A stretch of DNA of 39,997 bases from a virus: positions 1-39,997 of IMG/VR virus record IMGVR_UViG_3300017719_000044. One strand, written 5' to 3'. Shown here one piece after another: positions 113 to 18,758 of the stretch (positions are counted from its first letter, which is position 1; every line of letters starts with the position of its first letter). Both the position numbers and the translations under genes were made by a program. Under the pieces are notes generated by a model. The model was given only the letters and a program-made list of their open reading frames with translations. It ran no database searches and was not told the DNA's origin.

Positions 113-134
113 ACTTGGCGGGTGCGAGCCAAGT
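113..134 (-). terminator. Weak hairpin after the winged-helix gene
   Basis: ACTTGGC (113-119) and GCCAAGT (128-134) form a perfect 7-bp stem with an 8-base loop, touching the stop codon of the gene ending at 134. On the minus strand it is followed by CGTTGTATATTTATTC, which is T-rich but not a clean T run. It may be a weak or leaky terminator, or only an mRNA 3' hairpin. Confidence 0.3.
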
Positions 135-556
135 TATTTGGCATACTTTCGTGCTGTGTTTATGCCAGCAAAGTCTAGTTTCAAAGCTAAGTTTGCGAGT
201 GCGTCGGAGTAATTTATAAACACATCGGTCATAAATTTCTTTGCACTCACAGACCTGTGACCACGTTCGTCACGAAAGATGTCAATGTAATCGTGGCCTT
301 CAAGTTCGGATATAAGTGTGTCGATTGTGTTGCGAGTAGCGCCAAGTTCCTTGGCGGCGTCGCTTGGCAGTAAGGGGCTGTCGTCCATGTCGGCTCTTAC
401 GCAGAGCAAGCAAAACATTCTTCGGAATTGAGTAGACATGCAGTAGTCTATAAGTTTCGATTCTTCTGGCGTCGACCCTTCATAGACGTCACCAAGCCCT
501 TGTCTAACTTCTAGGTCGATCAAGCGCCTTGCATATAGTCTATTCAGTCTTAGCAT
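134..556 (-). CDS. Winged helix-turn-helix protein (140 aa)
   Basis: The product is a small soluble protein with no signal peptide. Residues about 60-110 read as a winged helix: PSDAAKELGATRNTIDTLIS is a typical helix-turn-helix, followed by a wing (YIDIFRDERGHRSVS). The closest general class is MarR- or replication-initiator-like wHTH proteins. It starts with ATG at 556, 40 bases after the preceding leftward gene, and is the last complete gene on the left side. A dyad resembling the putative phage operator (TTGCCCATAAGCAA, 580-593) lies just upstream, so autoregulation or control by the HTH protein encoded at 6117-6347 is possible. A role in transcription control is inferred from the fold alone; the target is unknown. 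Confidence 0.6.
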   Translation of the reverse strand: MLRLNRLYARRLIDLEVRQGLGDVYEGSTPEESKLIDYCMSTQFRRMFCLLCVRADMDDSPLLPSDAAKELGATRNTIDTLISELEGHDYIDIFRDERGHRSVSAKKFMTDVFINYSDALANLALKLDFAGINTARKYAK

Positions 557-596
557 GATATAACATAGCTAACATGAATTTGCCCATAAGCAACAG

Positions 597-779
597 TTAA
601 GTTTGCTCGGCGGGTACGGGCAGACAAAGTACGCGGAGTGGAGAAGAATTCTTTATGGCACCGATGTTAAATTCAAGGGCTGCTTCGAGGCACTTGTCTT
701 TATTTATTTCAACAGGTGACTGTGCCATGGAGTAAGCGTTTGGGCCGTTTACTATAAAGAGAACCATGAGCACTTTCAT
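597..779 (-). CDS. Small hypothetical protein downstream of the spanins (60 aa)
   Basis: The ATG at 779 overlaps the stop of the o-spanin gene (ATGA arrangement), showing translational coupling. The protein starts MKVLMVLFIVNGPNAY, a short hydrophobic strand or weak signal-like segment. It then has a charged middle with two cysteines (DKCLEA and VLCLPV) that could form a disulphide. Small proteins of this kind beginning MKVLxxL are common beside lysis genes in marine phages. I do not recognise a named family. Its position at the end of the lysis block suggests an accessory role, but that is inference. Confidence 0.55.
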   Translation of the reverse strand: MKVLMVLFIVNGPNAYSMAQSPVEINKDKCLEAALEFNIGAIKNSSPLRVLCLPVPAEQT

Positions 780-991
780 GGGTCATTGCCGCAAACGCTT
801 GTGAATGTCTCATTGTGGATGAGGATGTCAGTTAAAAGCTTGCGGTCCTCGTGCCTGAGCATGTCAACAACGACCTCGTCCTCGAAGTACATGGGGCTTG
901 ATATGTCACAGTAACTATTTCCGCTTATCTTTGCGCACCCACTGAGTAGCACGCTCGACAAGATAAGGGTCGTCAAGTGAATTGATTTCAT
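776..991 (-). CDS. Outer-membrane spanin lipoprotein (Rz1-like, 71 aa)
   Basis: The N-terminus MKSIHLTTLILSSVLLSGC is a lipoprotein signal peptide with lipobox LSGC, so Cys19 would be lipidated and the protein sent to the outer membrane. The mature part holds a C-terminal segment (DILIHNETFTSVC) matching the hN..~..C ending common in phage o-spanins. Its start codon lies inside the i-spanin gene, with a strong AAGGAGG site just upstream; overlapping genes are typical of two-component spanins. With the i-spanin it would fuse inner and outer membranes in the last step of lysis of a Gram-negative host. The call rests on lipobox, size and genetic arrangement. Confidence 0.75.
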   Translation of the reverse strand: MKSIHLTTLILSSVLLSGCAKISGNSYCDISSPMYFEDEVVVDMLRHEDRKLLTDILIHNETFTSVCGNDP

Positions 992-1148
992 CGGTGACCT
1001 CCTTGTGTGTCTTGAGGTTGTTGAGGCGGTCTTCGTCTAGCTTCCGCTTTACTTTGTCTTGTCCTCGCATGATGCCTGCGGAGTAGATGCCGAGCAGTCC
1101 AAGTACAAAACCTGATGCGATTAGTGCGTAGAGTTGTAGTCGTGCCAT
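915..1148 (-). CDS. Inner-membrane spanin (Rz-like, 77 aa)
   Basis: The N-terminal transmembrane segment is LQLYALIASGFVLGLLGIYS (residues about 4-23). A charged periplasmic helix follows (RGQDKVKRKLDEDRLNNLKT), then a short tail. This is the plan of an Rz-type i-spanin, though at 77 residues it is short. The gene follows the amidase directly (stop at 1149-1151, ATG at 1148). Its last 77 bases overlap the start of the o-spanin gene in another frame. The gene pair is one of the clearest signs that the host has an outer membrane. Function is inferred from topology and overlap; sequence identity to a named family was not checked. Confidence 0.72.
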   Translation of the reverse strand: MARLQLYALIASGFVLGLLGIYSAGIMRGQDKVKRKLDEDRLNNLKTHKEVTDEINSLDDPYLVERATQWVRKDKRK

Positions 1149-1814
1149 TTAACGCCACCCATTTGCCCATGCAGTAAGTCTCTCCTTCATAATGTAAATC
1201 GCCAGCAGTACCGTAAGGCCCGCGAAAGCAAGTACGATGTACTGTGCCGTACTATCGAGACGGGAGAGAGATGTGACCGTTGTGCCTGCGGACGCCGCAA
1301 TGGTTGCGGCGGAAGCCTTGACGGTCTTTGATTGTGTTGGTTTGGATCGTTCAGGTTGCGTACGGTTGCGTGCAACCTCTTCGCCAGCGAGCCACTTTTG
1401 TACGCGAAATCCTGGGCAGGCTTTTGTTGATACGCGGTTGTGTCCGATGATCTTATCGTTCTTGATTGCGTACTTCTCTTGTAGCTGCTTGATTGTCTCG
1501 TAAAGTTTTGCAAGCTGGGGAGCAGTGAAGTGGTCAGAGGCGATGTCGTCTGCGTCCGAACCGAAGCCTCCCACGAGGGCGATACCGATGTTGGAGTTGT
1601 GTCCCTTGGCGTGCGCGCCTGTCGTGCCTAGTGCGCGGCCTTCTGCGATCTCGCCGTTACGCCCGATGACCAGATGATAGCCGATTGTGCGGAACGATCT
1701 CTCTTTGTGCCACTTGGTAATCTCTTCGACCTGCCTGCCGATGCTATCGTCTGCCATCCAGTCGGGACGTGTGGCAGTGCAGTGTACGATAATGCCTGTG
1801 TGTTTGACTGTCAT
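1149..1814 (-). CDS. N-acetylmuramoyl-L-alanine amidase, T7 lysozyme type, with C-terminal membrane anchor
   Basis: This is the endolysin, cutting the amide bond between muramic acid and the peptide stem of peptidoglycan. Residues 1-140 form an Amidase_2 domain. IIVHCTATRPD supplies zinc ligand His11, GYHLVI carries Tyr46, and GHNRVSTKACPGF supplies His125 and Cys133, matching the His-Tyr-His-Cys layout of T7 lysozyme. Unlike T7 lysozyme it has a Thr/Ser/Ala-rich linker (about 145-182) and a C-terminal transmembrane helix (AQYIVLAFAGLTVLLAIYIM, about 188-207). It is therefore probably membrane-attached rather than freely soluble. The ATG overlaps the stop of the upstream nuclease gene (ATGA). 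T7 lysozyme also inhibits T7 RNA polymerase, but no phage polymerase is visible here. Confidence 0.9.
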   Translation of the reverse strand: MTVKHTGIIVHCTATRPDWMADDSIGRQVEEITKWHKERSFRTIGYHLVIGRNGEIAEGRALGTTGAHAKGHNSNIGIALVGGFGSDADDIASDHFTAPQLAKLYETIKQLQEKYAIKNDKIIGHNRVSTKACPGFRVQKWLAGEEVARNRTQPERSKPTQSKTVKASAATIAASAGTTVTSLSRLDSTAQYIVLAFAGLTVLLAIYIMKERLTAWANGWR

Positions 1815-2203
1815 AGTTTAAACTCTCGCTGTATGCTCTCGGTCTCGTCTTCAGCAATGAAGCGAGTAGGTGTAATCTTAAATGTGACGGGGGGTTTGTC
1901 GTCCCACGTACGAGCGATACACTTCTGAATGTCGAGGGCCACGAAGATGTAGATGCCTTCGTACGGCTCTTTCCTGTCTATCTTGAAGTTGTAGATTAGG
2001 CTTCTGCCCTTGTGATCCTTCCGCTGGATCGCACGTCGAGCAGACTTAACTTGTACGCGCTTGATAGATTGGTCGGGGGCGCGAACCCAGAGGTCGTCGT
2101 GGGGTAGGTCTACGTGGCTTACACGTAGTCCCATGCGTTCTAATATATATGCTGCGTAAAATTCAGCAGCGCGTCCCGAATAGATAGAAAGTTGGCTGGG
2201 CAA
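1811..2203 (-). CDS. PD-(D/E)XK endonuclease-like protein (130 aa)
   Basis: An N-terminal helix with Glu (RAAEFYAAYILERMG) is followed by an aspartate-rich strand (VDLPHDDLWVRAPD) and RVQVKSARRA, a QVK motif in the place of the (D/E)XK strand. This order fits small PD-(D/E)XK nucleases of the group-I-intron-endonuclease/resolvase type. The start is probably TTG at 2203, directly after the TGA of the upstream holin-like gene; no better in-frame start lies near. The gene sits between lysis genes, an odd place for a nuclease, so it may be a passenger or host-DNA-degrading function. The catalytic assignment is by motif only. Confidence 0.6.
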   Translation of the reverse strand: MPSQLSIYSGRAAEFYAAYILERMGLRVSHVDLPHDDLWVRAPDQSIKRVQVKSARRAIQRKDHKGRSLIYNFKIDRKEPYEGIYIFVALDIQKCIARTWDDKPPVTFKITPTRFIAEDETESIQREFKL

Positions 2204-2479
2204 TCATCTGTTTCGCAGAAGTGTTTCCAAGTGAGTGATGGTGGCTTTTGCTGCTGAAAGGTCTGAGCGTAATTCCGCGATCTCCTTTAATAGTTCCTCG
2301 ATCTGGATTGTCTTGTCGTCCAGTTTGTCAGCCAACCTGTCTACTTGTGTCTTTAAAGTTGTTTGATACTCGGCATTGGCGTCGCGTCGTTGTTTCTCTC
2401 GCATTGATATGAAAGACCAGAAGCCCGCAGAGCCGACGAGGGCCACAGCGATGGTAATAATATGTTCGATCCCCACCAC
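2204..2479 (-). CDS. Holin-like membrane protein with coiled coil (91 aa)
   Basis: One N-terminal hydrophobic helix (HIITIAVALVGSAGFWSFIS, residues about 5-24) is followed by a long charged coiled coil to the end (QVDRLADKLDDKTIQIEELL). Small membrane proteins with this GSxGFW pattern are frequent beside endolysin genes in marine phages and are often called holins. The start is GTG at 2479, supported by AAGGAACTGAC just upstream; a second GTG follows at once. Its place before the amidase and spanins supports a lysis role such as holin or pinholin, but a single transmembrane segment with a coiled coil could also be a virion or regulatory membrane protein. Confidence 0.5.
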   Translation of the reverse strand: MVGIEHIITIAVALVGSAGFWSFISMREKQRRDANAEYQTTLKTQVDRLADKLDDKTIQIEELLKEIAELRSDLSAAKATITHLETLLRNR

Positions 2480-2580
2480 GTCAGTTCCTTATGTTGGCTG
2501 AGATCAAGATACTTATGTTCGACAAGTTCGTCATCCCTAATACCTAGAGCAGCGGCGAAGCCCCAGCGTAGCCGCAACCA

Positions 2581-3063
2581 TTACCATTTGCCCAAATATA
2601 ATCCGATAAAGTACGCAATCCCTACGGCCACCAATACTCCCAGCAACCCTGCGCCAGTCATGCCTAGAGTATTCATAAGTTCTTGACGTTCTTTCTCGCG
2701 TTTCTTTTTTGCAGCGGCACGCGCGACGCGTGCTTCGTTTTGATAGGCTTGCCACCTGTCCCACGTTCCTGGTTTTGCGTACAAGCGGCAAAAACTTTCG
2801 AGTTCTTTTCGCTGTTCGGTGATCTTCTCTAGCTGCTGGAAGCATTCCCAATCGCCTTCTTCCCCGCCAGTTATGGCGGTCATAGCAGAATTTTTTTTCT
2901 TCTTTACCTGCTCTTTAAGCTCTTCTTCGGCAGCAAGAAACTTACCGACTTGGCCTACCATGTCAGTGACTTCGCGTCCGTTTTCTAGGCACTTCCTAAT
3001 GACGGAGTAGGCCGCATTTGCAGCCGCAATGGTTTCCAAGATGGCGATTGTAGCTACCCTCAT
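2581..3063 (-). CDS. Membrane protein with central coiled coil (160 aa)
   Basis: The N-terminus (about 1-25) is a mildly hydrophobic Ala/Ile-rich segment. The middle is strongly charged and helical with two cysteines (DWECFQQLE, LESFCRLY) and the motif GTWDRWQAYQNEARVAR. The C-terminus is a clear transmembrane segment (GAGLLGVLVAVGIAYFIGLY). I know this plan from unnamed proteins of marine podoviruses, where they lie near lysis or tail genes, but I cannot assign a function. A 100-base gap separates it from the holin-like gene; the gap contains a GGGATGAC motif on the minus strand close to GGGACGAC found in other gaps. Confidence 0.6.
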   Translation of the reverse strand: MRVATIAILETIAAANAAYSVIRKCLENGREVTDMVGQVGKFLAAEEELKEQVKKKKNSAMTAITGGEEGDWECFQQLEKITEQRKELESFCRLYAKPGTWDRWQAYQNEARVARAAAKKKREKERQELMNTLGMTGAGLLGVLVAVGIAYFIGLYLGKW

Positions 3064-3110
3064 ATCTGCGTACGAAGATGAAGGTGATGTTGAGCGTCAG
3101 TGTTTTCTTA

Positions 3111-3521
3111 TTATATCTCACTTGATTGTTCAGTGTCGTCCCTTGCGGGGTGACCAAGCGCACGCAGGTACGCAATGTAAAACTCCGTCCAGTCCGACAA
3201 GCGCATGACCACAAGACTGTCTTCAATCTTCTCTTGGTTCTTGCGAGTAATAACGACTGGAAACTCTTCACTCCTTGTCGCTAAAATATTTCTTTCAGCT
3301 TGGCGTACTGCATCACGGAAGTTAAGGCGCTCCACCCTCTTAGCCTCTATGAAAACTTGTGGCGTACCGAGTATGTCTGCGCCGCCAGCATGTAGGCCGA
3401 CCTTGCCGCCACCACTCAAAGGTGCGCGTTGGCATTGATCTGCGCCGAAGATGTGTTTGTTAAAGTATTTGGCTAAGTCGTTCTCGTACTTGTCGCCTTT
3501 AGCCTTTTGAGGATTACCCAT
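3111..3521 (-). CDS. Holliday-junction-resolvase-like PD-(D/E)XK nuclease (136 aa)
   Basis: The core motifs stand in the archaeal Hjc/phage resolvase order: KGDKYENDLAKYF (helix with Glu), GGADILG (Asp), VFIEAKRVE (Glu-x-Lys) and FRDAVRQAERN (Gln-containing helix). It likely cuts branched replication or recombination intermediates before packaging, which suits the Sak4/SSB/exonuclease set encoded at 6848-8886. Two ATG codons are adjacent (3524 and 3521). I chose 3521 because GGGAAG lies about six bases ahead. A longer frame reaching 3614 would mostly overlap the upstream gene and lacks a good start. The first codons overlap the end of the HTH/zinc-ribbon gene. Confidence 0.72.
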   Translation of the reverse strand: MGNPQKAKGDKYENDLAKYFNKHIFGADQCQRAPLSGGGKVGLHAGGADILGTPQVFIEAKRVERLNFRDAVRQAERNILATRSEEFPVVITRKNQEKIEDSLVVMRLSDWTEFYIAYLRALGHPARDDTEQSSEI

Positions 3522-3825
3522 CATATTCTTCCCACATATAATCAGCAGCCGCCTCACGCTCGTGACACGGCGTACATCTGTATTGATTGATTGGACGTGA
3601 CTTTGTGCAGCCACATATCATACACGGTCGAGACCAGACCTTCGGCTTGGATCGGTAATGATACTTGGCACCAGGAAAGTACGCGAGTTCCATCTTCATC
3701 ATAATCCGTTTGAGTGTGTCTACGCAGCATCCGAGTTGGCGAGCTAAATGTGCGTTCGTGAATTTTGAATGGTTATCCTTCAGCCAATGCTCTTGCTCTG
3801 TAGACAGCGCAAATTTATTTGACAT
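3514..3825 (-). CDS. HTH and zinc-ribbon protein (103 aa)
   Basis: Residues 1-50 hold a homing-endonuclease-like or transposase-like HTH (HLARQLGCCVDTLKRIMMKM). Residues about 68-90 carry two Cys pairs (CMICGC and CTPCHE), a zinc ribbon. Such proteins are common in phages as regulators or as partners of HNH enzymes; no HNH catalytic core is visible. It starts with ATG at 3825 after GGAGACAGC. It is the first gene of the leftward block below the non-coding region and would be transcribed from the putative leftward promoters at 3843-3871 and 4093-4122. DNA binding is inferred from motifs. Confidence 0.6.
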   Translation of the reverse strand: MSNKFALSTEQEHWLKDNHSKFTNAHLARQLGCCVDTLKRIMMKMELAYFPGAKYHYRSKPKVWSRPCMICGCTKSRPINQYRCTPCHEREAAADYMWEEYDG

Positions 3826-3839
3826 GCTGTCTCCGATGT

Positions 3840-3871
3840 TTGTCTATGCGCAACACATATCATGGCAACAA
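3840..3871 (-). promoter_or_regulatory. Leftward promoter with putative operator A
   Basis: On the minus strand TTGTTG (3871-3866) stands 17 bases from CATAGA (3848-3843), aligned base for base with the leftward promoter at 6374-6402. The -10 lies inside TTGTCTATGCGCAA (3840-3853), an imperfect dyad repeated at 4090-4103 and, diverged, at 6371-6384. It would drive the gene starting at 3825 and the lysis block. The motif could be a repressor site, an unusual -10 context, or both. Confidence 0.5.
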
Positions 3872-3891
3872 CTTTTTTACAACTAAGGGTG

Positions 3892-3919
3892 TTGACTTTT
3901 CTGACAAAGACGATAAAAT
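3892..3919 (+). promoter_or_regulatory. Rightward sigma70-like promoter in the non-coding region
   Basis: TTGACT (3892-3897), a 16-base spacer and TAAAAT (3914-3919) make a near-consensus promoter. No protein gene follows it on the plus strand before the terminator at 4185-4212, so it would make a non-coding transcript of about 285 bases ending in the candidate small RNA, or an origin-activating transcript. The -10 overlaps the left arm of the 12-bp inverted repeat. Confidence 0.55.
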
Positions 3920-4022
3920 CGCAAGCGACTTGCAAGCGAAGGTAAGCGAGTTCGCCCCAACGGGACGTTGGGTCGAATGAGCGAGACAAGCGGTTAAGCA
4001 AAGGCGGGCAGCGATTTTATCG
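3911..4022. repeat. 12-bp inverted repeat enclosing phased AAGCGA repeats; possible replication origin
   Basis: CGATAAAATCGC (3911-3922) and GCGATTTTATCG (4011-4022) are perfect inverted copies enclosing 88 bases. Inside, AAGCGA occurs at 3923, 3934 and 3944 (11- and 10-base spacing), with GAGCGA at 3979 and AAGCGG at 3988 nearby. A hairpin (3951-3961 against 3967-3977, one mismatch) carries GGGAC in its loop. Helically phased short repeats next to a primase-helicase gene are what iteron origins look like. The origin call is an inference; no DnaA boxes were identified. Confidence 0.45.
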
Positions 4023-4028
4023 AAATCG

Positions 4029-4078
4029 GTACGCAAAAAAGTACGCAAAAAAAGTTTGTTCAAAGAGGTTCAAAGTGG
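4029..4078. repeat. AT-rich direct repeats beside the putative origin
   Basis: GTACGCAAAAAA is repeated in tandem (4029-4040, then 4041-4053 with one extra A). It is followed by the repeat GTTCAAAG, twice within AGTTTGTTCAAAGAGGTTCAAAG. The segment is A/T-rich and could be the melting region of an origin. GTACGCA is also the 7-mer that is over-represented through the whole window, and these are its only tandem copies. Confidence 0.5.
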
Positions 4079-4107
4079 TTGTGCAATAGTTGTCTATGCG
4101 CTACATT
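4079..4107 (+). promoter_or_regulatory. Rightward promoter for the candidate small RNA, overlapping operator B
   Basis: TTGTGC (4079-4084), a 17-base spacer and TACATT (4102-4107) predict a start near 4113-4115. The dyad TTGTCTATGCGCTA (4090-4103) fills the spacer, so a protein bound there would block it. On the minus strand the same stretch holds TTGTTC (4122-4117), 18 bases from CATAGA (4098-4093), a second leftward promoter. Both promoter calls are by eye. Confidence 0.45.
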
Positions 4108-4112
4108 TAAAG

Positions 4113-4212
4113 GGCAGAACAATCCTCCCTGTTCTGCCTCTCCCAAGAGAAGCTTGTTCTCCTCACAAAGACAGCTCCTTCACTAAGCCCCGCTGGTAGC
4201 GGGGCTTTTTTT
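4113..4212 (+). ncRNA. Candidate phage small RNA with anti-Shine-Dalgarno-like loops
   Basis: About 100 bases lie between the rightward promoter at 4079-4107 and a perfect rho-independent terminator, with no protein gene on this strand. GGCAGAACA (4113-4121) pairs perfectly with TGTTCTGCC (4130-4138), leaving the loop AUCCUCCC. A 5-bp stem (4147-4151/4157-4161) follows, then the terminator. Unpaired or loop stretches contain CCUCCC, CUCUCCC, UUCUCCUC and GCUCCUUC, all complementary to ribosome binding sites such as GGGAGG, AGGAGA and AAGGAGC. Alphaproteobacterial small RNAs with CCUCC loops (alpha-r14 and CcsR/'cuckoo' types) act through such motifs; likeness to them is inference. The alternative is a leader of the opposite strand, but the U tract fits only the plus strand. 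Confidence 0.55.
4185..4212 (+). terminator. Rho-independent terminator, rightward
   Basis: AAGCCCCGCT (4185-4194) and AGCGGGGCTT (4198-4207) form a perfect 10-bp stem with a 3-base loop, followed by seven T on the plus strand. On the minus strand it is followed by TTAGTG, so it works rightward only. It ends in the stop codon of the primase-helicase gene and would keep rightward transcripts from running antisense through that gene. Confidence 0.85.
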
Positions 4213-6157
4213 ATGAGTTGGCTTTTGCGTTTGAGACGTGGCTTTCTATATGCTCGCGCCTCAAGTGCTTAGTCCAGTCAGAAACCACACTGACAGGCTT
4301 GCCCACTTTGTTAGCTATCTCCGCATCAGACAGAGGTGGCATTTGTACCCCCTCGCTATTCGTCCATGGCTGCGCTGCTTTTATAGCACGTTGCTTTGCT
4401 GTGCTTTCGGACACGACACGTACATTCTCTGTGTTCTCGTCCTCCAAAAATGCGATGTACATAACTGGCTCATGTGCGTCGCTCCACTCACGAACTTTCC
4501 CATATCGAAGCTCCATGCAAACTTGTAAGCGTTCTGTTGGCGTGCGGACTGGTGCAGTGCCAAGCATTGTGTGCGGCGTTCTCGGTATGTCACCGTCATA
4601 GATGCCAGCCTTAACGTCTGCTGTCTCTTTGTCGGCGTACACTTGCGTCACCTTTATCTGCGTCTCCAGTACCGTCAACTGGTTTGAGCTTCCCGCCTCC
4701 CGACCAGACCGACCACCATCTGCGGGCTTGTTGGAATGGTGTACAAGTATGACAGTCATCCCCGCATTACGAAGTGTAAGGGCAAGCTTGTTGATGTTGC
4801 CCCACTCTTCTGCGCTGTTCTCTTGCAGCCCAGACCAAGCCGTACGGATCGTGTCGATTACAACAATCTCTGGCTTGTTAAAATTGATCCAGCTTTGCAG
4901 GTTGTTGATGCCAGCGTCTTCTTTAAGGTTCATCATTCTATCGTCGATGAACGGCGTCCATATCATAAAGCGCCCCTCTGCGTCACCGAACGAGCGACGC
5001 GATCTAGTAAGAAACTTTGATATGTTCTGCTTGCTGTTCTCAAAGTCCAAGTAAAGAACACGTGGCTTCTTGCGTATGTCGAACGGTCCGAACGATGGCG
5101 CACCTGCTGCCGCTGCATATAGTAGGTGACGGATGAACATCGACTTACCGTGTCCAGAGTAGCCATGGACCTGCATGATCGTACCCGTATCAGGGATGAT
5201 CGGGTCGACAAAGTATTTTATATTGCTCGCTTCCTCGGCAAGACGGTCAGCATCAAATGTTGTGATCGGCTTGAATCCGCTCGCCTCTGGCTTCTGTTCT
5301 TCGAGCTTCGGCTTATTCTCTTCCTTTGCGTACGCATGGTCGATCACGCTTTGAAACTCTTGCTTGTTGACTTTATGAGGATCGTGGAAGAACTCGGAAA
5401 CGTATTCGATCATAGCTGTCTCGCAGCTTTCCCTCGTATGTCCCTGCGCCGCGTACTCTCCCGCCAAGCTTACGAGCATCTGATGTCGGTTGTCTCCAAC
5501 GCCAGCCATAAGTTTTCGGCCCATCTTCTCGACAAGGTCTCTAGTCGTTTCAACAACACCACGCTTTATTTGGATGTGAGTGAGCGAAAGATTACCAAAC
5601 TTAAAGTCATCGAATGAAACTACGTTGCTCGGCTTCTGCGTGCCGTAGTTATTGACGGGATAATCTGGCACGTCATCCCAGTCAGACCCACTTAATCGCG
5701 TATAGTTTGGCGTAGGTGGAACAAGTGCGATGCCCTTGTGGGCCTTGCGATCCAATCCCTTTACAACATCTCTGGGCCACTCGACACCGTCAGCGTTGCT
5801 CCACGTCAGCGTCTTTATATGTCCCGCATTTTTGGGCCACTTGAAGTAGAAGTGTTTGCCTCGTTTGGTTTGGACAACCCAAGGCGTCTGTGTCAGCCCG
5901 ACTTCCATTGCGTAAGCTTCCGCTTCCTCGTTGTCACAATCGACAACAAGGACGCCAGAAAGTTCACCTGTTACAATCCCAACGTAACTGTTCGGGAATG
6001 CTTCCCACCATTGGATTACTTGTTCTTCGGTTGGGAATTTCCCTTCGTCATAAAGTTCTCCCCACTTTACGACTGGCCTCTTTTCGTTTGGATGGATTGG
6101 GACAACCCACCAACCTTCATCCAGCATCTCCAGTGCTGTGTTCAGATACTCGCTCAC
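4211..6157 (-). CDS. Bifunctional primase-polymerase / RecA-fold helicase (648 aa)
   Basis: The N-terminal half (about 1-190) is a Prim-Pol (archaeo-eukaryotic primase-like) domain: PIHPNEKRPVVKWGELYDEG, then GVLVVDCDNEEA with the metal-binding Asp pair near residues 70-75, and KHFYFKWP. A helical PriCT-like linker follows. A RecA/RepA-type ATPase has Walker A GYSGHGKS (about 334-341) and Walker B EIVVIDT (about 428-434). The C-terminus has an HTH-like segment (DAEIANKVGKPVSVVSDWTK). It would unwind DNA and make primers at the phage origin. I chose GTG at 6157 because CGGGAGAAAACA is an ideal ribosome binding site directly before it; the frame is open to 6244 but without support. It overlaps the HTH gene by 41 bases. 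Confidence 0.85.
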   Translation of the reverse strand: MSEYLNTALEMLDEGWWVVPIHPNEKRPVVKWGELYDEGKFPTEEQVIQWWEAFPNSYVGIVTGELSGVLVVDCDNEEAEAYAMEVGLTQTPWVVQTKRGKHFYFKWPKNAGHIKTLTWSNADGVEWPRDVVKGLDRKAHKGIALVPPTPNYTRLSGSDWDDVPDYPVNNYGTQKPSNVVSFDDFKFGNLSLTHIQIKRGVVETTRDLVEKMGRKLMAGVGDNRHQMLVSLAGEYAAQGHTRESCETAMIEYVSEFFHDPHKVNKQEFQSVIDHAYAKEENKPKLEEQKPEASGFKPITTFDADRLAEEASNIKYFVDPIIPDTGTIMQVHGYSGHGKSMFIRHLLYAAAAGAPSFGPFDIRKKPRVLYLDFENSKQNISKFLTRSRRSFGDAEGRFMIWTPFIDDRMMNLKEDAGINNLQSWINFNKPEIVVIDTIRTAWSGLQENSAEEWGNINKLALTLRNAGMTVILVHHSNKPADGGRSGREAGSSNQLTVLETQIKVTQVYADKETADVKAGIYDGDIPRTPHTMLGTAPVRTPTERLQVCMELRYGKVREWSDAHEPVMYIAFLEDENTENVRVVSESTAKQRAIKAAQPWTNSEGVQMPPLSDAEIANKVGKPVSVVSDWTKHLRREHIESHVSNAKANS

Positions 6158-6347
6158 TGTTTTCTCCCGTGAAATATTGATCGAAGCTAACCGCTGGGAA
6201 TGCTTCTTTGATTTGTGATAGATAAGCAGAAGAAACACTGCCACGTCTGGCCCAGCCGTACGGAACAGACCGTCCAGTATTCAGACGACGTGACACCTCC
6301 CTTGCGCCTCCCAAGTCATTTATCAAACTTTCGATGTCAAAGGTCAT
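6117..6347 (-). CDS. Small Cro-like helix-turn-helix regulator (76 aa)
   Basis: The N-terminal 60 residues form a compact helical DNA-binding domain: ESLINDLGGAREVSRRLN and SVPYGWARRGSVSSAYLSQI read as the HTH core of Cro/YdaS-type phage regulators. The tail (GENSERVSEHSTGDAG) is disordered. The gene faces the early rightward operon across an 81-base gap, the classic place for a Cro/repressor-type switch, and is followed in the same transcript by the primase-helicase. The dyad TTGCTTATACGCTA in the gap, with relatives at 3840 and 4090, is the likely binding site. No integrase is visible, so this may be an early/late timing switch rather than lysogeny control. Binding site and role are inferred. 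Confidence 0.7.
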   Translation of the reverse strand: MTFDIESLINDLGGAREVSRRLNTGRSVPYGWARRGSVSSAYLSQIKEAFPAVSFDQYFTGENSERVSEHSTGDAG

Positions 6348-8055: not shown

Positions 8056-8886
8056 ATGCACCCAGTTCATCCGAAGGTTGCCAGCGTCCTTGAGAAGATA
8101 GACGAGGGCTACGCACAAGAGGTTCGAGGGGGAGCTAGGCAGTATATCGGCGCAAGCATGGCTGGCACCGACTGCATAGCACAACTCGCATTGTCTTTGC
8201 GTGGCTTCCCAGACACATCTGTTGACCCGCAGTTGCAGAGAATTTTCTTTGCTGGTCACAAGATAGAAGACTGGGTTGTCTACGATCTTAGGAAGCGAGC
8301 CGACCTTCGGGTGTGGGAAAAGGACGACATGACTGGACGCCAACACAGGCGTGAATGGTTGAACGGTCACGTCGTTTGCAACGCCGATGGGATCGTCGAT
8401 TTCGAAGATGGTACGGGCCAAGCAATTCTTGAGGTCAAGTCGATGAACGACAACAACTTCAAGAACTTTAAGAGAAATGGTGTGAAGAGTTCGCATCGCA
8501 AGTATTATCGTCAGATGACGATGATGATGGCGATGTTCGGGATCGAGCAAGCTTTTTTCATATCGTACAACAAAAATACAAGTGAATATCACGCTCAACT
8601 TGTTCCTTTTGACCAAGAGGAATGGGACGAAATGTACGTTAAGATACAAGCAGCACTCGATGGACAGGCGGGGCGCGTAGCTTCTGACCCTAATGATTGG
8701 CGATGTAAGTCGTGTTTCAAAAGGGAAAGCTGTTGGAGCCACGAGGCAAACGTGGCCCCCGCCTGTCACTTCTGCAAACACTCTTTCGCAAACAAAAACG
8801 GTGGATGGACGTGCAAGCTGACCAATAAAGAAGTTAGCCGCACATGCGACAAGTACGAACAATTCCGACCAGAGCCAAAGGTTTAG
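8056..8886 (+). CDS. Cas4/YqaJ-like PD-(D/E)XK exonuclease with C-terminal cysteine cluster (276 aa)
   Basis: The nuclease core shows HIVCNADG-type strands: VVCNADGIVDFED (Asp near residue 112) and QAILEVKSMND (Glu-x-Lys near 126-130), then YYRQMTMMMAMFGI, the helix with the conserved Gln/Tyr of RecB-family nucleases. The last 60 residues hold many cysteines (CKSCFKRESC, CHFCKHSF, CKLTNKEVSRTC), suggesting an iron-sulphur cluster as in Cas4 or a zinc ribbon. It would resect DNA ends for annealing by the Sak4-like/SSB pair. I chose ATG at 8056, two bases after the SSB stop; the frame is open further upstream but that stretch overlaps the SSB gene. Confidence 0.85.
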   Translation: MHPVHPKVASVLEKIDEGYAQEVRGGARQYIGASMAGTDCIAQLALSLRGFPDTSVDPQLQRIFFAGHKIEDWVVYDLRKRADLRVWEKDDMTGRQHRREWLNGHVVCNADGIVDFEDGTGQAILEVKSMNDNNFKNFKRNGVKSSHRKYYRQMTMMMAMFGIEQAFFISYNKNTSEYHAQLVPFDQEEWDEMYVKIQAALDGQAGRVASDPNDWRCKSCFKRESCWSHEANVAPACHFCKHSFANKNGGWTCKLTNKEVSRTCDKYEQFRPEPKV

Positions 8887-9453: not shown

Positions 9454-9607
9454 CGTAAGTCTTGACCTTATTTTTAAGGCGATCAAGCAGTCAAACACCG
9501 CAGAGACAAGAGCGATCTTATCTCGTGCGGTTTTTTTCTTGAAGCAGCAACAGTCGAAGATGGACGAGGTTCCGATTGAACAAATCGACCCTCGCCCTTT
9601 TGATTAG
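9428..9607 (+). CDS. Last small gene of the rightward operon (59 aa)
   Basis: This short frame starts at ATG 9428 inside the DUF6378-like gene and ends TAG at 9605-9607. It reads MTPQRNEVDVSLDLIFKAIK and further helical sequence, ending in IEQIDPRPFD. The composition is normal for a soluble helical protein. The tight overlap upstream and the acidic C-terminal tip (DPRPFD, loosely like an SSB-type tip) support it being real. Its stop overlaps by four bases the stop of the giant leftward gene, so the two operons converge tail to tail with no terminator between. Confidence 0.6.
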   Translation: MTPQRNEVDVSLDLIFKAIKQSNTAETRAILSRAVFFLKQQQSKMDEVPIEQIDPRPFD

Positions 9608-12600
9608 TTACTAGCTTTTCCAGCGAGCGTATCAACAATCGTCTCGCGCACACTGCTTGTCTGACCGATAAGTGGTACACGGCTAACGATCTCGCGTACT
9701 GCTGCGCGTGGCTTGCCGTTTGACCCCTCACCCATGATAGCATTCCCACCAGCTTGCGCACCGCCAGCCAGTATTGTTTGTGCATCATGCAGTATGCCGA
9801 GCGATGGTCCGAGTAGCATTTCAGTAATGCGTTGCGCACCGTACGCACCATTGTCTAGCTGGGATGCGGTGTCGTACATAAGTGATCCGATTAAACCAAG
9901 GCCACCCATTTGCATGAGGCCATCACGATACCAACCAAGTGCCATTGCTACGCCTTCATCGTCGCTGATGCCGTAATCTTTCAAGAACTCAAGGCGTCTG
10001 TCGCGTACTGCGAACTCTCTGTTCTCTTCGCCGCCGCGACCTTGAACCACGTCCTTTGCACCAACAACGGCAGCACCAACAACTGGTGCGCCAGCAAAGT
10101 ACATTAGAGGCATGAAGTTCTTGTGATCCTTTGCCTCTTTGTAAACGGTGTAACCCATACGCGTCATCATCAATGGGAACGACTTCAACTGGAAGATCAT
10201 CTGTCCGATTGGTGACTGCGCCCACAGTGGAATGTCTAATGGGTTTGGCGTGAAGATGGTTTCGTTTGCGAACCTGTGCATTGCACCTGCAACTTGGTAG
10301 TACATCTGATCTACGTCAGCAGAAGAGCCGCTGCGCAAGATGCGCTCGATGTTCATTCCTGGTTGTTTGTACAAATCACCAAGGCCGTACTCGTCGAGAA
10401 CACGGCGAGATTGTCGACCAGCCTTCGTGTTCGGCTTGCGTACTGCTATCTCCTGTTGTGACTTGAACCACTCGTAAGATACCGCTGCCGATATATCACG
10501 CATTGTGTTTGTCCAGTCAGTCAACCCGATTGCTGTAAAGAAACCAGCAGAGAAGCGTGTTGTGTCCATACCGAACGCTCGTGACATACGCTCTTGCACA
10601 ATGTTCTGCGTAGATGCGCCGACGTTGCGGATCATTTCGCGATACGCTGGGCCTACATCTGGATCGACCATCCACTTACGGTACGCTTCTGTTGATGAAC
10701 GCAGACTGCCACTTCTAATAAGAGGCAAGACAACGTCACCCAGTGACGACAGTGTCACGAACGGTAGGAGCGTCACGCTGTTGAATGAGCGCAGCCAAGA
10801 CGATGGCTTCTCAAGATGCTTCTCAAAGCTTGCATTGTACACAGGCTTGCGAGCAACAGCCTTGAACAAGTTGTCAGCCTCTTCAACCATGTGTGACTGA
10901 GGCATGTAGCTTTGGTCTAGCCCTTTTGTATCTGTTAAAGCTTCTGCAATCGCACGTGCGCGGAACGAAAAGTTCTTACGCATTTGGTCAGCACCAGAAC
11001 TCAAGCTGTCTGGCTCAACCATGGACATGATGTCCTCGTAGATTTCATCTACTGATGCACCGTCATGTGCTTTCTGCGCCAACTCTTTTGCTTTTTTTTC
11101 TCCGATTATCTGACCCTCTGGTCCACCCTTCTGGATGGGTGCCATGAATACAGCTGACTGGAAGATAGCATGTGCGCCTTCGCCAGCGACCTCGTCTTGT
11201 GTATTGGATGGGTCGATGAACAGCTTGTAGTCCTTGCGCAAAACCTTGTTTGATCGCAGCAATCTTGAGACAGCATCAGTGCCGCCATTCATAACAGCAA
11301 GATAATCGTAGTAGCCGAAACCGCCTACCCCAAATCTGTCCGCTATGTCGATGCGTTGTTCAACGCTGTCTGCGTACTTGGCACCAATAACCATAAGGTC
11401 GTTTTCAAGGAACTTGCTTAGATCGTTCGATGGGTCGCGCATGTTTGTGAACTGCGCTGCCCAGCCTTCGTCTAGGCGGATTAGACGCTGGTAATCCACA
11501 TGGTCTACACCACGTTCTCCGCTTCGGTTGAATGAGTGGGCGTCTCCAACCCATACCCCGTCTTCGTGGATAAGGCGGTCAGCCACGCCCTCTGCTTTCA
11601 AGCGGGCTTGCTGCGGCTTGAGAACCGCACCGCGTTCTGCGTGTTCTGCTGTGAAGTACTTAGACAGGATGTCCACAAATCCTTCGCGGTCTGCTTCTAT
11701 AAGATCGCGACGCCACACTTGAGGAACGTAGTTCTTACGAATGTTCCCAACGTCGTAGCCAGAAGACACAAGTCTGTCGCGAGCCTCTTTGAAATATGTA
11801 CGCATGTACTCGTATATTTCGCGCTCTTGAGATGTAAGCTCTGGAACCCGTCCCTCATTGCGGAGCGCACCGAGAACTCTCAAGTGGCTACCGATAGGCA
11901 TCTTGCGTGTGGGTGGTGGTATGCGCAGCATGGAACCGATGTTTTCGCCAACATTGTATGCGTACAACATTTCTCCAAGACCGTTTTGCAGCCAACGCTT
12001 CATCCCGTTTCCGCTGTCAGGTAGCTTAATAAGCATACGCTGTAGCGGCCCAAGGAATTGACCAGTACGCAAAGCGTAACGTTCGAAGTGGCCTGCGCCC
12101 GCGTCACTTGGCTCAAAGAACTCCGCGATGGATCGCATACCAGAGCGTGCTAGGCGTTGTGCGTTATTGCGTACAAGTCCGAACTTAGCTACCCGACGAA
12201 TTTCACGTCCTTCGCTTGGTGTGATCTCCTTCTTGCGCTTCACTTTTGCTAGTATCTCCGTTGTCTTCTTCGGCATACCCGCGATTTCAAGTGCGGAGAG
12301 TGCATCTTCGAACGCCTGATCTCCGTTGTCGTTTGCAACCTCCATAGCATCAATCACATGTGGAACAACGTCGCTTGGCATGCTCTCATTGAAACCCATC
12401 TCTGGCTCGTCGAACAACGCTGCACGCATATCGCGTACATCTGTTTCGTTGAGCATTGTTTTCTGCCCATTGATGTTAATGCTTGTGAAACCCATGTCGC
12501 GCATTACAGACATTAACTTCTGCTCGCCGCCTGCTGCGTCTTGTAGAAGACTTAGCATTTCAGATGGCTTGTACGATCCGCGCATACCATCAAGGATTGC

Positions 12601-15600
12601 GGAGGATTGTGACATACCCACCGTAAGGTCGTCCGCTTCACGGATGGCGCGGGACAGAACTTTAATAATCCCATCAGATGGGATCATGTCTCTCTTAAAG
12701 TTCGCAGGCTTTGTATCCCTGATAAGAACTGGCGTAGACATGTACTTGTCAGGCACACCCATTTCAGCAAGCTCTAAACGAAGTGCTTGCTCTTCGTAAT
12801 AAAGTTGCTGGATGCTGTTGCGGGAACCCTGCCGCGCGCGAAGCGTGTTAATGCTAGAGCGCACGTCACGTAGTTCGTCGAGTACGTCACGCACTTCGTC
12901 ACTTACTTTGTTCATCGGTGTTCTGGATATTTTGTTAAGTGGTGTCGCGTCCACTCGTATACCAGAGCGCATTGCCCCTACATTACTTACATCCACAAAG
13001 TATGGAATAATGTCTCCATCTTTCACGAAGTCTTGCATCGCACGTATTGTATTTGGTGATGCTTGCTGGATGTAATCAGCAGCAAAGTCTTCAGCGAACT
13101 CGGCTGGCACGTCATCAATGAACTTGTTTTTTGGCGATGTTGGGTCAAAGCTAGATGTCTCTGACAACATGTTGCCGTATGTCATTAAGGGCGCAAAGTT
13201 TCTACGTGCGTTCGGCTTCGCAATAAGCCCGTTAAGAATATACGACACGCCCTCTCTCATTGAGGTACGGACGTCGTTAAGAACATCGAACATGTGTTCT
13301 TTTGCAAAGTCCTCGTCTACTGTATCGAGAACCGCAGCAGCTTTCTTGGGAACCTTTACCCCCGCATCTTCAGCTACTAAACGAGCCAATACTTCAGATG
13401 GGTCATAGCCAACTGCCCCTGCTGCACGTCTAAGTGTTTCTTTTTGCGAGGCTGGCAAGATGCTTGAATTGTAAACGTATCCGCCAACAGTTTCCAAAGA
13501 GTTCATAATGTCTTCAGACTTTGTAACTTCACCTGCAATTTTGCGTACGTCATTCCGAAGTTTTTTGAAACTTTCAGAGGTGACCTTGGGTGACACTTCT
13601 GCCCCGATGTACATAAGGCGGGAAGCGATCTTACGTGCAGTAGATTGTAGTTCGCTTGTGCGGTGGGTGATTGCACGCAAAGCATTTCTGGCAGTGTATG
13701 GAAGAGATGCGGGAATACTTGGGTCTTCGCCAATCTCTGCATCCATCATCTTCTCTGTTTCGATTGCCTTGAATACTAGGTTGTTAGTAACAGTGTTCTT
13801 CTCCCCGCGACGCTGCAACTCCCATTCGATTGCGCGTGCAAGGTCAGCAGAAAACGCAAGGATAGGTTCTTCGTTTGTAAGGTCTTTAGGCGCGTTGCGC
13901 GTCATTAGAATTGCTTTTGTGTAGTTCTGAATAAGCTCTGGCGTACGCATTGCCTTTACTTCGTTCGTGATCGTCTTGTCTGCGACAGGCGTTGCGTTTG
14001 GCATTGAGCGAACAAGCCCAATAATGTGGCTGCGAAGCTTCTTGGATTGTTTAGTCTCCGCGCCAGCGTTCAAGCTGCGCTCGTACGCTTCGATTGATGT
14101 GTTAATATCAAGCTCGTTTATGCGTACCTTTGGCGCGTCCTTCAGGTCTGGCGCTGCTGCTGTATCTTTGATCTTCTGGTTGTTCTTGATGTTGCGCCCA
14201 GTAGCGGCCCGCTTGCGCTTTGCTGCGTTTGCACGGCCCTTAACGCGCTTGAAGCGTTGTGCGCGTTTGATTGTTTCTACGCCATTAGGAAGAGCCTCGC
14301 GACGTGCAATCTCTGTTGATGTCGCTTTGAACTCTGGGATGTCTCCGCCTTCCACGTCTAGGTAGGCGTTGTTCATCGTCGCCTGCACCTCTTTGATGAA
14401 CTCGTTTAAACCTTGCTTGTCAAAGATTTCAGTTATGCCGTCGTACACCTCTGGGCCAAAGCCAATTCCGTCGAAGTCTTCCCCGTCCTTGGTCTTGACG
14501 TCCATCTTGAACTTGCGTGTGACGCTTTCGATGGCCTGTGCTGCTTTTTTCATTTGCTTGTGATGACGACTAACAACTGCAAATGCGCCAGAGTACGGGC
14601 GGAGTGTCTCGTCGTTCTTGCGTGCGATAATTGCAGCTTCTTTCTTTGTGGTAGACATGCCACGAAGCTCTTTGGCAAAGTCCGCCAAGCGTTCGGCTGC
14701 TCGGTCTAAGTCTTTGTCCTCGTATGCTGCACGTGCTTCGTAGAATGAATTGCTCATTTCTGTGAAGCGGATGCGTATTGCTTTGCCTTTGTTTGTTGTT
14801 GGCTCGACTGGGTTCATAACGCTTACGCGCTCTGCCTGCACATCGTCGATGATTAACTTCTCGAAAAGCGGGACAAAGTCTTGGTCGATAATTTCTTTGC
14901 CCTGTATCTTTTGGATGAAGTGCTTGACGAGAGCGGTTACTTTTTCCCACAGACCTTTATCTGGCACAGAAAGCATATCGTACTTTTGTGTTATGAACAA
15001 AGCAAACTGGTTCGCGAAGTATTCGTTAAAGCTTTCTTGAAAATTTCCTGCTCCGATCAGGACTTCACCAGTTTTCGGATTAACAACCGTTGGAGACTTT
15101 TCGATTATGTCTAGGGCTGCATCTGGATACAGCACTCCGTTTTCATTGTAAAACTTCTCAAACAAATTCAAGAAGTCTATCCTTGTCTTGTTGTCTAAAG
15201 CATTAATCCACATCCAATGGCCCATCTCGTGCGCCAAAACAAATTCGGGATTAAGGACTGCATCGCCGCCACCAAGCGTCCTTGCCGCAAGACTGGTGTC
15301 TAACAAAATGGCGTTTGACTGAGCTTTGCTGAAAAATTGCGATGATGCATAATGAGCGTTCATACCTTCGGTTGCTAAAAAAGTAGGCGCGTCACCATCG
15401 TCGGGGATCACTGCTCGCAACATCTTTTCAAAGTTTGCTTTTGCTTTAGCTGGCGCACCTTTCCAGACAACATCTTTTATAAGACGAATGCTGTCTTCAA
15501 GGGTTGTACTGTTATAACGAATGCCATCAGGAACAAAAAAATCTGTTATGGAGAGGGCGTTCTTCACAATAGCCATACGATTCGCAAATGAAAGGTCTTT

Positions 15601-18600
15601 GTTTCTTACTTTTGCGTTGCTTCCAAAGTTTTGACGCGCATCGAAAGGTAGCGAGAACAACTTGTTGTTCAGTGCGTGTAAGTCATAAACAGTCAGTGAG
15701 TTGCTTTCGAATGCATCTTTCATGCGTGGAGTTGCGTCTACCACGTCCAATGCCATTTTTAAGCCGCCGCGCTCCGTCGCGTTGAGAAAATTCAATTCGA
15801 TACGCATGTCACGAGCTTCTTGCTCTGATAGTGGGTACTTCAGAACCTCTACGTCTGTCTCAAGTGGGTTTTCGTATGGATCGTTTCCTTCACCAAAAGG
15901 CTCGAAGTCTGCAAGTAGCTTCTTGCGATCTTTGGCTGTCATGTTTGGAGAAACGTACCCAAGATAGTAGTCGTCTAGGTTTGCACGTGCGATGACTTGG
16001 CGTGGGTCTGTCTGCTTCGGTGATATTTTACGGAACCACGTGCCTTTTTTACCAACCTCGCGTGGGATCATTGCAAAGGTTTTGCCGTTGTCGCGTTCGC
16101 GTGGGATGTCAGGGATGTCGTCACGCTTGACCTCGCCACCCTGCCCTACGGTCTTCTCTGCTTTCTGTGCGGTTTGACCTGTCGCAGCGTCTACGGTCTC
16201 GATGTCTTTTTCTAAATCTTCTAGCGAGCCAGTCTTCTTAAACTTCTCGAACGCGCCATCACGAGCCTCGACTGCTTCCGTCGATGTCATAGGCTCTGGC
16301 TCTGCTTTGCTGACAGTTGTCTTTGCTGTCTTAGTATTTGCCTTGAGACCCATGGCTTTCATAGCCATTTGCTCTGTGGAGTACACTTTGTCTAGGCGTG
16401 GAGAATAATATACTGTCTCCCCTTTTGCGGCCTTACCCGCACGCTTGTTCACGCCCTTCTTGCCGATGACTGTTTCGCCTCCGACAGCACGATATGCGTA
16501 TACGTTGCGTGCCTTAACGCCTTCTTTCTTCGAAAGCTCTCGAAGTATGTCTAGCGTTAGTCTTTGTTTTGGGAACCTGTCGTTAGCATTGATAACAGAG
16601 TAGCCATCGCCAATGTCAAACCCTCTACGCAAGATTGATTGGGGTACAGACTTAACTACACGCTCACCTGTCTTCTTATCGAATGTTACGACTTCTGTTG
16701 TGCCAGCGGTCTTGACGCCCTTCTCAAGCGTGTCTTGGGCTTTCGCTGTACTTCCAGCAGAACGCTTGACAGTTGCGTCATCTGTTGACGCGTCTATCGT
16801 AACTTTCGCACCGCCATCTGTGCGGCCCTCAATGGTTTTAGATTTGCCTTTGATGTCTGGAAGCGTTTGTTCGCGATCCAAGAACTCCCGACGCATCTTG
16901 ACGACTTCTTCAGCGTTCGCAACGTTGATGCCTCTTTCCTCTGCATCCGAGTGCATTCCTAAAAGTTGGCGTAGGTAGCGGTAGACCTGTCCGTCTACTT
17001 GGCCCGTCTCTTCCAGCCCACGAATGATAGCATCCATGTTCTCCAAAAACTCGCTAGAGCCTTTGGACATATCCATGATCTTTTCGTACTTGCGTACGGC
17101 TTCATCGAACGATGCAGTATTTCCGTCAGTGCTTTCTGCTGCGTCAGCTACGTCTGCTTCTTGGTTAGCTGGCTCTTCTGGGAGCGCATCACTTACCTGC
17201 TGATCTTTGGCTTGAGGATCAGCGTCCGCTTCTGGCGTCTTCGCTTCTGGGGCAGCCTTTGTTAGTTCCCCATAGGTTTTCCTAAAAAGCTTGCCGCCTT
17301 TAGTCACTTGAACAGAGCCATCATTTACACGTCTCTGAATTTCAGCGTCTAGGTCGTCACCCTCTAGGCCAAGGTGTTCGCCAATCCTTGCTTTTTGCTC
17401 ATCATTAGCCCAGTCCCACTCAATGCTTTCTTCAGCCGCACGATCTGAGGCACTTCCGTTAGGCTCTAGTTCTGTTGGGGTGCTTTCGTCAGCACTATCT
17501 TGCGTACCCTCTTGCGTACCTTTAGGCTCTGCCTCCGGGCTTCCCTGGGTGTCTGTTTGAACAGTTGCCACTTCAGGTTCCGTACCTTGCGTACTCTCTG
17601 CTGGCCTTTGCATCTGCACTTCGCCGCTTGCGAACAGTTCGTCTGGCTCCATCTCCAGAACTCTTGCTCGCTTTTGCGCTAATGCGTCGAACTGCTGTTT
17701 GACTTGGGATGCGGCTGATGCATTGCCGTTTGCTGTTTCGTCTTGGAACCTCTTGGCTAGGTCGTCTAGCTCAAGGTCCATGTTGTTGACGTACTGCTGG
17801 ACGGCAGCAATATTTTGTTCATCTATCGTGAGGTCTGCAAGTGCTGCCTGACCTGTGTCGACTTCGTTCTGGTCCGTTGTCCCAGACAAAGACGCACTGA
17901 TGGCTTCGCGTTCGCGTGTTATGTAGCCTTGCTCTTGTACAAGCATAGAACCAAGGCGTGTGTTGTCCCAGTCACCCAAGCTACCGACACCCTTGGCGAC
18001 TTCGCCTATGCCTAGCATTGAGCCGCCTTTAACAAGGAGGCCAGCAGCCAAGCCAGAAACGCCAGCGTCTACGAGGCCAGCACCCGCCAAGCGCGCTACG
18101 TCAAAGTCTTCTGAGACGCCTTGGGCAATCTCCATGCCCTGCTGTGCTGCGTCAAAAGCAAGGCCAGTACCAGCGCCGATTGCTGCTTCGCCTGCTGCTG
18201 CCTTGCGTACGCCTGCTTTTGTAGCTTCTTTTGTTGCTTGCTCTAATGTTTTACCCGCAAGCCTCGCCCCTTGGCCCGCTTTTACAGCAGCCCCGCCTGC
18301 ACCAACACCAATAAGGTTGATGGGGTCAGCGACACCAGCAACGCCGTAGTCAATTACTTTATCAAGTACGCCGCCACGCGAAGGTGCCTGCGCCCATAGC
18401 TTCGAAAGTCTTGATAGCTTTTCTCTACCGCTGTCTCCAGCCGTCGCAAACTCGACTGCGTCGAGGCCCATAGATAAAGAGTTGACATCGCTCCAGCGTT
18501 TGTCTGTGTAGAACTTGTCCCACATCTCACTAGAGTTGTTGAAGTATACCCCGTTGGCTGCGTAATAGTCGCGAACCTCGGCTATCGCATCTTGGTCAGA

Positions 18601-18699: not shown

Positions 18700-18758
18700 C
18701 GGGTACTCCATTTAACCTGATGGTCACAGATTAAACGGAGAGCCGACTTTTATCGTCC

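Follow-up and report, generated by a model that had tools for sequence, protein, structure and literature searches.

A conserved candidate small RNA with an anti-Shine-Dalgarno loop in a phage resembles the cuckoo RNAs of alphaproteobacteria

The marine phage sequence of IMG/VR record IMGVR_UViG_3300017719_000044 (positions 1 to 39,997; this whole 39,997-nt stretch is called the window here) probably encodes a trans-acting small RNA of about 100 nt that would pair with Shine-Dalgarno (SD) sites of the GGGAGGA, GGAGG and GGGAG types and, in the manner of cuckoo RNAs, lower the translation of a set of messages. Comparison with related phages shows a conserved structured element with a conserved loop, transcription signals and an assigned strand, and the phage appears to own a version of the "cuckoo" stress RNAs of its likely host group.

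On its left the small RNA is flanked by a leftward operon (134-3825; genes for an amidase, a RusA-like resolvase and others), and on its right by a primase/helicase gene, likewise leftward, whose 3' end faces it. Positions 4113-4212 of the plus strand form a promoter-hairpin-terminator unit, with the following parts and neighbors.

4079..4107, plus strand: predicted promoter of the small RNA, TTGTGC (4079-4084), a 17-nt spacer, and TACATT (4102-4107)
4113..4138, plus strand: core hairpin, a perfect 9-bp stem (4113-4121/4130-4138) with the loop AUCCUCCC (4122-4129)
4139..4150, plus strand: weak 4-bp hairpin with UCUCCC; UCUCCCA in L002-L004, close group only
4157..4164, plus strand: UUCUCCUC motif, not kept even among the closest relatives
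4174..4181, plus strand: GCUCCUUC motif, kept in L002-L004 only (GCUCCUU)
4185..4212, plus strand: predicted intrinsic terminator and RNA 3' end, a 10-bp stem (4185-4207) and a U-run
4211..6244, minus strand: convergent primase/helicase gene with PHROG primase matches

The preliminary description of this DNA had proposed a promoter-terminator unit of about 100 bases with no coding role, and this was borne out: promoter, hairpin and terminator were all located, and no open reading frame of at least 60 aa was found within 4113-4210. The perfect 9-bp hairpin that it described is likewise present with its loop at 4113-4138 (GGCAGAACA-AUCCUCCC-UGUUCUGCC), its base separated from TACATT by 5 nt. The predicted fold of the 100-nt RNA has an energy of -39.5 kcal/mol (z = -5.4), and 0 shuffles folded as well. 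The proposal that the RNA carries several anti-SD motifs held only in part. The second and third motifs exist, but they are partial and weakly structured, and they are neither generally conserved nor the equals of the first, with UUCUCCUC degraded in the nearest relatives to UUCACCUC, UCCGCCUC and UUCGCCUC. Judging from these relatives, the two downstream CUCCU motifs (4157-4164 and 4174-4181) are lineage-specific.

The promoter sequence TTGTGC-N17-TACATT is weak by consensus, was missed by a generic promoter scan, and alone gave a p_shuf of 0.126. A TTGTRY-like-N17-TACATT arrangement is kept in L002-L006 and L032, and most relatives have sigma-70-like promoters in which the -10 element ends 5-6 nt before the hairpin. 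Combining the promoter scores of 19 loci, which include several close or near-identical relatives that are not independent, gave p ~1e-6 versus shuffles. Terminators of unrelated sequence are found at the equivalent place in the relatives. A 16-nt direct repeat, TTGTCTATGCGCWACA, is present both upstream of the leftward operon (3840-3855, plus strand) and inside the small RNA promoter (4090-4105, plus strand), and is possibly a shared operator or promoter element.

A separate structured element lies at 3892-4022 (plus strand), where a TTGAC-type promoter overlaps an exact inverted repeat of 8-14 bp, its -10 box being part of the 5' arm. The structured stretch closed by this repeat is about 93-114 bp long, with arms CGATAAAATCGC...GCGATTTTATCG in the window (z = -4.9). 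Of 35 representative loci, 29 have this inverted-repeat promoter element at the equivalent place, as does Roseobacter phage CRP-810 (L020, about 8180-8300, minus strand), and its arms change together (TAAAAT, TAAACT, TACAAC, TACGCT, TATAAC). Because the 5' arm would fall upstream of the transcript start, the repeat may function as DNA, for example as a replication origin; alternatively, it may belong to an RNA able to pair through its 3' arm with its own promoter. Beside it, at 4029-4077, are iteron-like short tandem repeats (two copies of GTACGCAAAAAA and two of GTTCAAAGWG), parts of which vary among relatives.

Searching IMG/VR with the primase recovered close relatives at 61-93% identity, and the primase alignment search comprised 80 loci, down to about 39% identity. 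The hosts of the window's phage group are most likely Rhodobacterales, because related primase genes are present in one Poseidonocella (Rhodobacteraceae) genome and in CRP-810, the nearest cultured phage (primase, 38.5% identity). A hairpin with a CCUCC(C) loop was found beside the primase gene in L002-L006, L008, L009, L032, L040, L048, L055, L063, L070 and L071, and one with a UCUCCC loop in L039, L046 and L056. No such hairpin was found beside the primase in three other members of the clan (L034, L043 and L049), and it thus seems to be dispensable. In L077 and L091 the loop geometry of the window is nearly reproduced, together with a terminator, elsewhere in the genome (CAACCACA-UUCCUCCC-UGUGGUUG and CAGCCACG-AUCCUCCC-UGUGGCUG, respectively). 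No CCUCC hairpin was seen beside the primase of CRP-810, and its whole record had no match to ar14, the Rfam family considered below. An exact 16-mer scan of viral contigs with loop plus stem returned only unrelated matches that had no hairpin. Elsewhere in the window, a 3035-aa open reading frame without a PHROG match (9604-18711, minus strand) is followed by further large open reading frames without matches.

Comparison of the hairpins indicates that the unit is under selection and that the loop is its most conserved part. Among 18 hairpins of related phages, the loop keeps UCCUCCC (in a few, UCUCCC), while the stems are completely changed yet paired. Covariation, suggested beforehand as a check on the RNA, was counted on these 18 sequences after they had been checked against their loci. 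The six pairs nearest the loop were standard pairs in 107 of 108 cells, compared with 46.5 ± 5.8 when the 3' arms were dealt randomly; the hairpins had been picked for pairing, for which motif permutations and sequence shuffles served as the controls. All four Watson-Crick types occur at each of stem positions 2 to 6, and the ratio of G-U to A-C on the plus strand was 12:1, a bias that is partly built in by the finder. A descriptor calling for the motif in the loop of a hairpin of at least 6 bp, with an intrinsic terminator within 130 nt, was run on both strands of 720 kb of related phage loci. CCTCCC gave 14 matches, which include close groups that are not independent and have stems of about ten unrelated sequences. 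There were no matches in the same 720 kb with any of the five other permutations of CCTCCC, or with GGGAGG or GGAGGG. Shuffling produced an equally good CCTCC-loop hairpin by chance at a rate of no more than 2.5% per locus, and mostly 0-1%. Loss of the loop with retention of the promoter had been named as the pattern that would speak against a functional RNA; instead, conservation was highest in the loop, and the promoter, the terminator and the pairing of the stem were retained as well.

In a permissive Rfam search the RNA matched RF02344 (ar14) over its full length (model positions 1-123) with 32.3 bits, a score lower than the gathering cut-off of 58.8 bits and therefore outside curated membership. 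The E value was 2.2e-4 for 441 nt and 4.7e-6 for the whole record, and 14 control genomes gave no RF02344 match. At the gathering level Rfam found nothing in the window, and RF02791 (CcsR) was absent among matches up to E = 5 in 3800-4240. In the order to which the Poseidonocella genome belongs, a likely host order, 94 of 101 genomes have ar14-like RNAs, with CUCCUCCUCCCU loops and variable stems. In the relative L032 (G108:C1:1160-1243, plus strand), an open reading frame for a CcaF1-like DUF1127 protein (35 bits; cut-off, 23.3) is located directly downstream of the CCUCC small RNA, just past its terminator. A DUF1127 search of 25 records found L032 only, with none in the window's record. The likeness to alphaproteobacterial CCUCC-loop RNAs drawn in the preliminary description is consistent with the RF02344 match, the host-order RNAs and the DUF1127 gene of L032.

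In the mechanism that we favor, transcription would start at the base of the hairpin during infection and end at the intrinsic terminator. The UCCUCCC loop would then base pair with SDs of the GGGAGGA, GGAGG or GGGAG type and compete with 16S rRNA for the ribosome-binding site, so that less of the message set is translated. The action would be that of the ar14 and CcsR cuckoo RNAs cut to one strong hairpin, accompanied in this lineage by weaker CU motifs. A chaperone such as Hfq may hold the RNA, with which the U-run and unpaired stretches are compatible. The targets would be mainly host messages, and the phage's own primase message is a possible second target. Counted in favor of this anti-SD reading were the constancy of the loop on stems that turn over but stay paired, the specificity for CCTCCC, the kept promoter and terminator, the excess of G-U over A-C, the ar14 match, the RNAs in 94 of 101 genomes, the DUF1127 gene of L032, and the divergent stems published for anti-SD loops of this family. 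Counted against it were the sub-cut-off ar14 score, the missing CcsR match, the weak promoter, the dispensability of the hairpin, the unspecific target predictions, and a GGAGG avoidance that is not significant once related genes are removed.

Target predictions are unspecific because CCUCC is complementary to almost any SD. The AGGAGA and AGGAGC sites to which attention had been drawn before the genes at 38822, 29336, 20972 and 31625 are present, but they are not the best loop partners and pair more weakly than the SD of the primase. Translation of the primase probably starts at GTG 6157, with the SD GGGAG at 6164-6168 (minus strand). Prediction against the phage starts, as proposed earlier, did single out this GGGAG as the best partner of the loop in the window (1 of 37); the primase SD was also the best partner in L077 (1 of 18) and the second-best in L002, L032, L039, L063 and L071. 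Specificity, on the other hand, was not upheld. The mean rank fraction of the primase was 0.20 for plain 16S pairing and 0.27 for the loop, and the primase was rejected as a specific target, its high rank being largely explained by its strong SD. These data bear on whether the RNA is mainly a self-regulator that pairs with the GGGAG/GGAGGA site of the adjacent primase/helicase and limits replication, like plasmid copy-number RNAs. The small RNA and the primase are neighbors in most relatives, as would be expected, and yet no co-variation between loop and primase SD was seen across relatives, and L040 and L048 pair poorly. Together with the explanation of the ranks by SD strength, this makes such a primary role unlikely, although it fares best among the alternatives considered. 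Avoidance of GGAGG SDs would be expected in phages bearing the RNA. Raw counts suggested avoidance (p=0.002 versus sister phages; p=0.001 versus the host), and with related genes removed the values were p=0.2-0.34 for sister phages and 0.03-0.07 for the host, the GC content of which differs.

Instead of pairing with messages, the RNA might titrate another partner: a protein that binds CU-rich RNA, a chaperone (for example Hfq) or a host small RNA bearing GGAGG. The several CU motifs and the U-rich 3' end of the window RNA would suit such a sponge, and the phage RNA sponges AsxR and AgvB are precedents (PMC12559287). Nevertheless, what is conserved is the exact anti-SD core, with its order kept and not its composition alone, as the permutations indicate, and the motif is identical to the loop by which host cuckoo RNAs function; we therefore regard a sponge as improbable. 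Least plausible of all is a DNA- or transcription-level feature without a regulatory RNA, whether it insulates or attenuates opposing transcription units or forms a structure used in replication. The hairpin does lie between the leftward operon and a convergent gene and adjoins a second conserved inverted repeat, but an insulator has no need of a conserved CCUCCC loop, the promoter 5-6 nt upstream is kept, and L077 and L091 have motif and terminator elsewhere in the genome.

Viral contigs were also scanned for tandem CTCCTCCCT motifs, followed by a hairpin filter, and host-type double hairpins were found in further contigs. Rfam scored L213, L137, L188, L154, L146 and L212 as ar14 at 37-47 bits. 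The tandem versions are located in replication or recombination modules and carry no annotation; genes for SSB, single-strand annealing protein, Cas4 exonuclease and primase are among their neighbors. The following three are ar14-like (30-47 bits), and in each the hairpins separate a DUF669 SSB gene from the gene that follows it in the recombination operon.

RHEph04, NC_041908.1, 45650-45741: tandem CCUCC-loop hairpins
RHph_Y55, MN988500.1, 52145-52235: tandem CCUCC-loop hairpins
L213:7278-7358: tandem CCUCC-loop hairpins

RHph_Y55 (33.2 bits) and RHEph04 (30.5 bits) are cultured Rhizobium phages, in which the element is unannotated and located between a DUF669 SSB gene and a DUF165 gene. In another viral contig, L165, a SorX RNA (RF02784; 54.8 bits, above the cut-off) lies at 1859-1935 (plus strand), directly 3' of a CcsR-like tandem hairpin and near a primase gene, which places another family of Rhodobacter stress RNAs in a phage or prophage. 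We tentatively propose, as something that may well be so but falls short of probable, that several unrelated alphaproteobacterial phage lineages, cultured Rhizobium phages included, have cuckoo-type anti-SD RNAs in or beside their replication or recombination modules. With these RNAs they would enter the host network of anti-SD stress RNAs and lower GGAGG-led host translation, largely sparing their own genes, which have other SDs.

RNAs of the cuckoo type occur widely in alphaproteobacteria, in which they adjust nutrient uptake and C1 metabolism during stress. By imitating the sequence with which the ribosome recognizes messages, a strongly selected phage version would give a virus a compact means of resetting translation, and phage-borne versions may help to explain how cuckoo-type RNAs move between genomes. 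The unannotated hairpins of RHEph04 and RHph_Y55 make the idea testable in infected cells.

The phage RNA can be compared with several known systems. The ar14/NfeR1 (RF02344) cuckoo RNAs have identical CCUCCUCCC anti-SD loops on divergent stems and are predicted to act at ribosome-binding sites (PMC10746234, PMC3927594). The phage RNA shares with them a constant CCUCC-type loop on diverging stems, followed by an intrinsic terminator with a U-run. It differs in lying in a phage, in its 7-nt UCCUCCC loop in place of CCUCCUCCC, and in having one strong hairpin rather than two to four; the window has a single strong AUCCUCCC hairpin, whereas ar14 is defined by at least two hairpins each bearing CCUCCUCCC. 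CcsR1-4 of Rhodobacter sphaeroides (RF02791) also have CCUCC loops. They are made with the DUF1127 protein CcaF1 at the CIN1 locus, a pairing frequent in alphaproteobacteria (PMC10253847). A DUF1127 gene adjoins the RNA in L032 but not in the window's record, and the CcsRs are cut from the ccaF1 3' UTR (PMC8625941), whereas the phage RNA has its own predicted promoter. SisA-D of Caulobacter crescentus, sibling RNAs that act via a 10-mer with an anti-SD signature (PMC12559287), are chromosomal, unlike the phage RNA, and are likened to it here by description. Small RNAs already described from phages, such as VpdS, PreS, 24B_1, OOP and c4, likewise act on messages of the host or the phage. The passages reached by keyword search in a phage small RNA review published in 2025 (PMC12197685; open-licence literature) describe none of them as an anti-SD RNA with a CCUCC loop and mention no phage of Rhodobacter, Rhizobium or alphaproteobacteria. 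The window RNA is most likely a slimmed-down, phage-borne RNA that works like the cuckoo anti-SD RNAs: the kind is known, and the phage-borne variant appears to be new.
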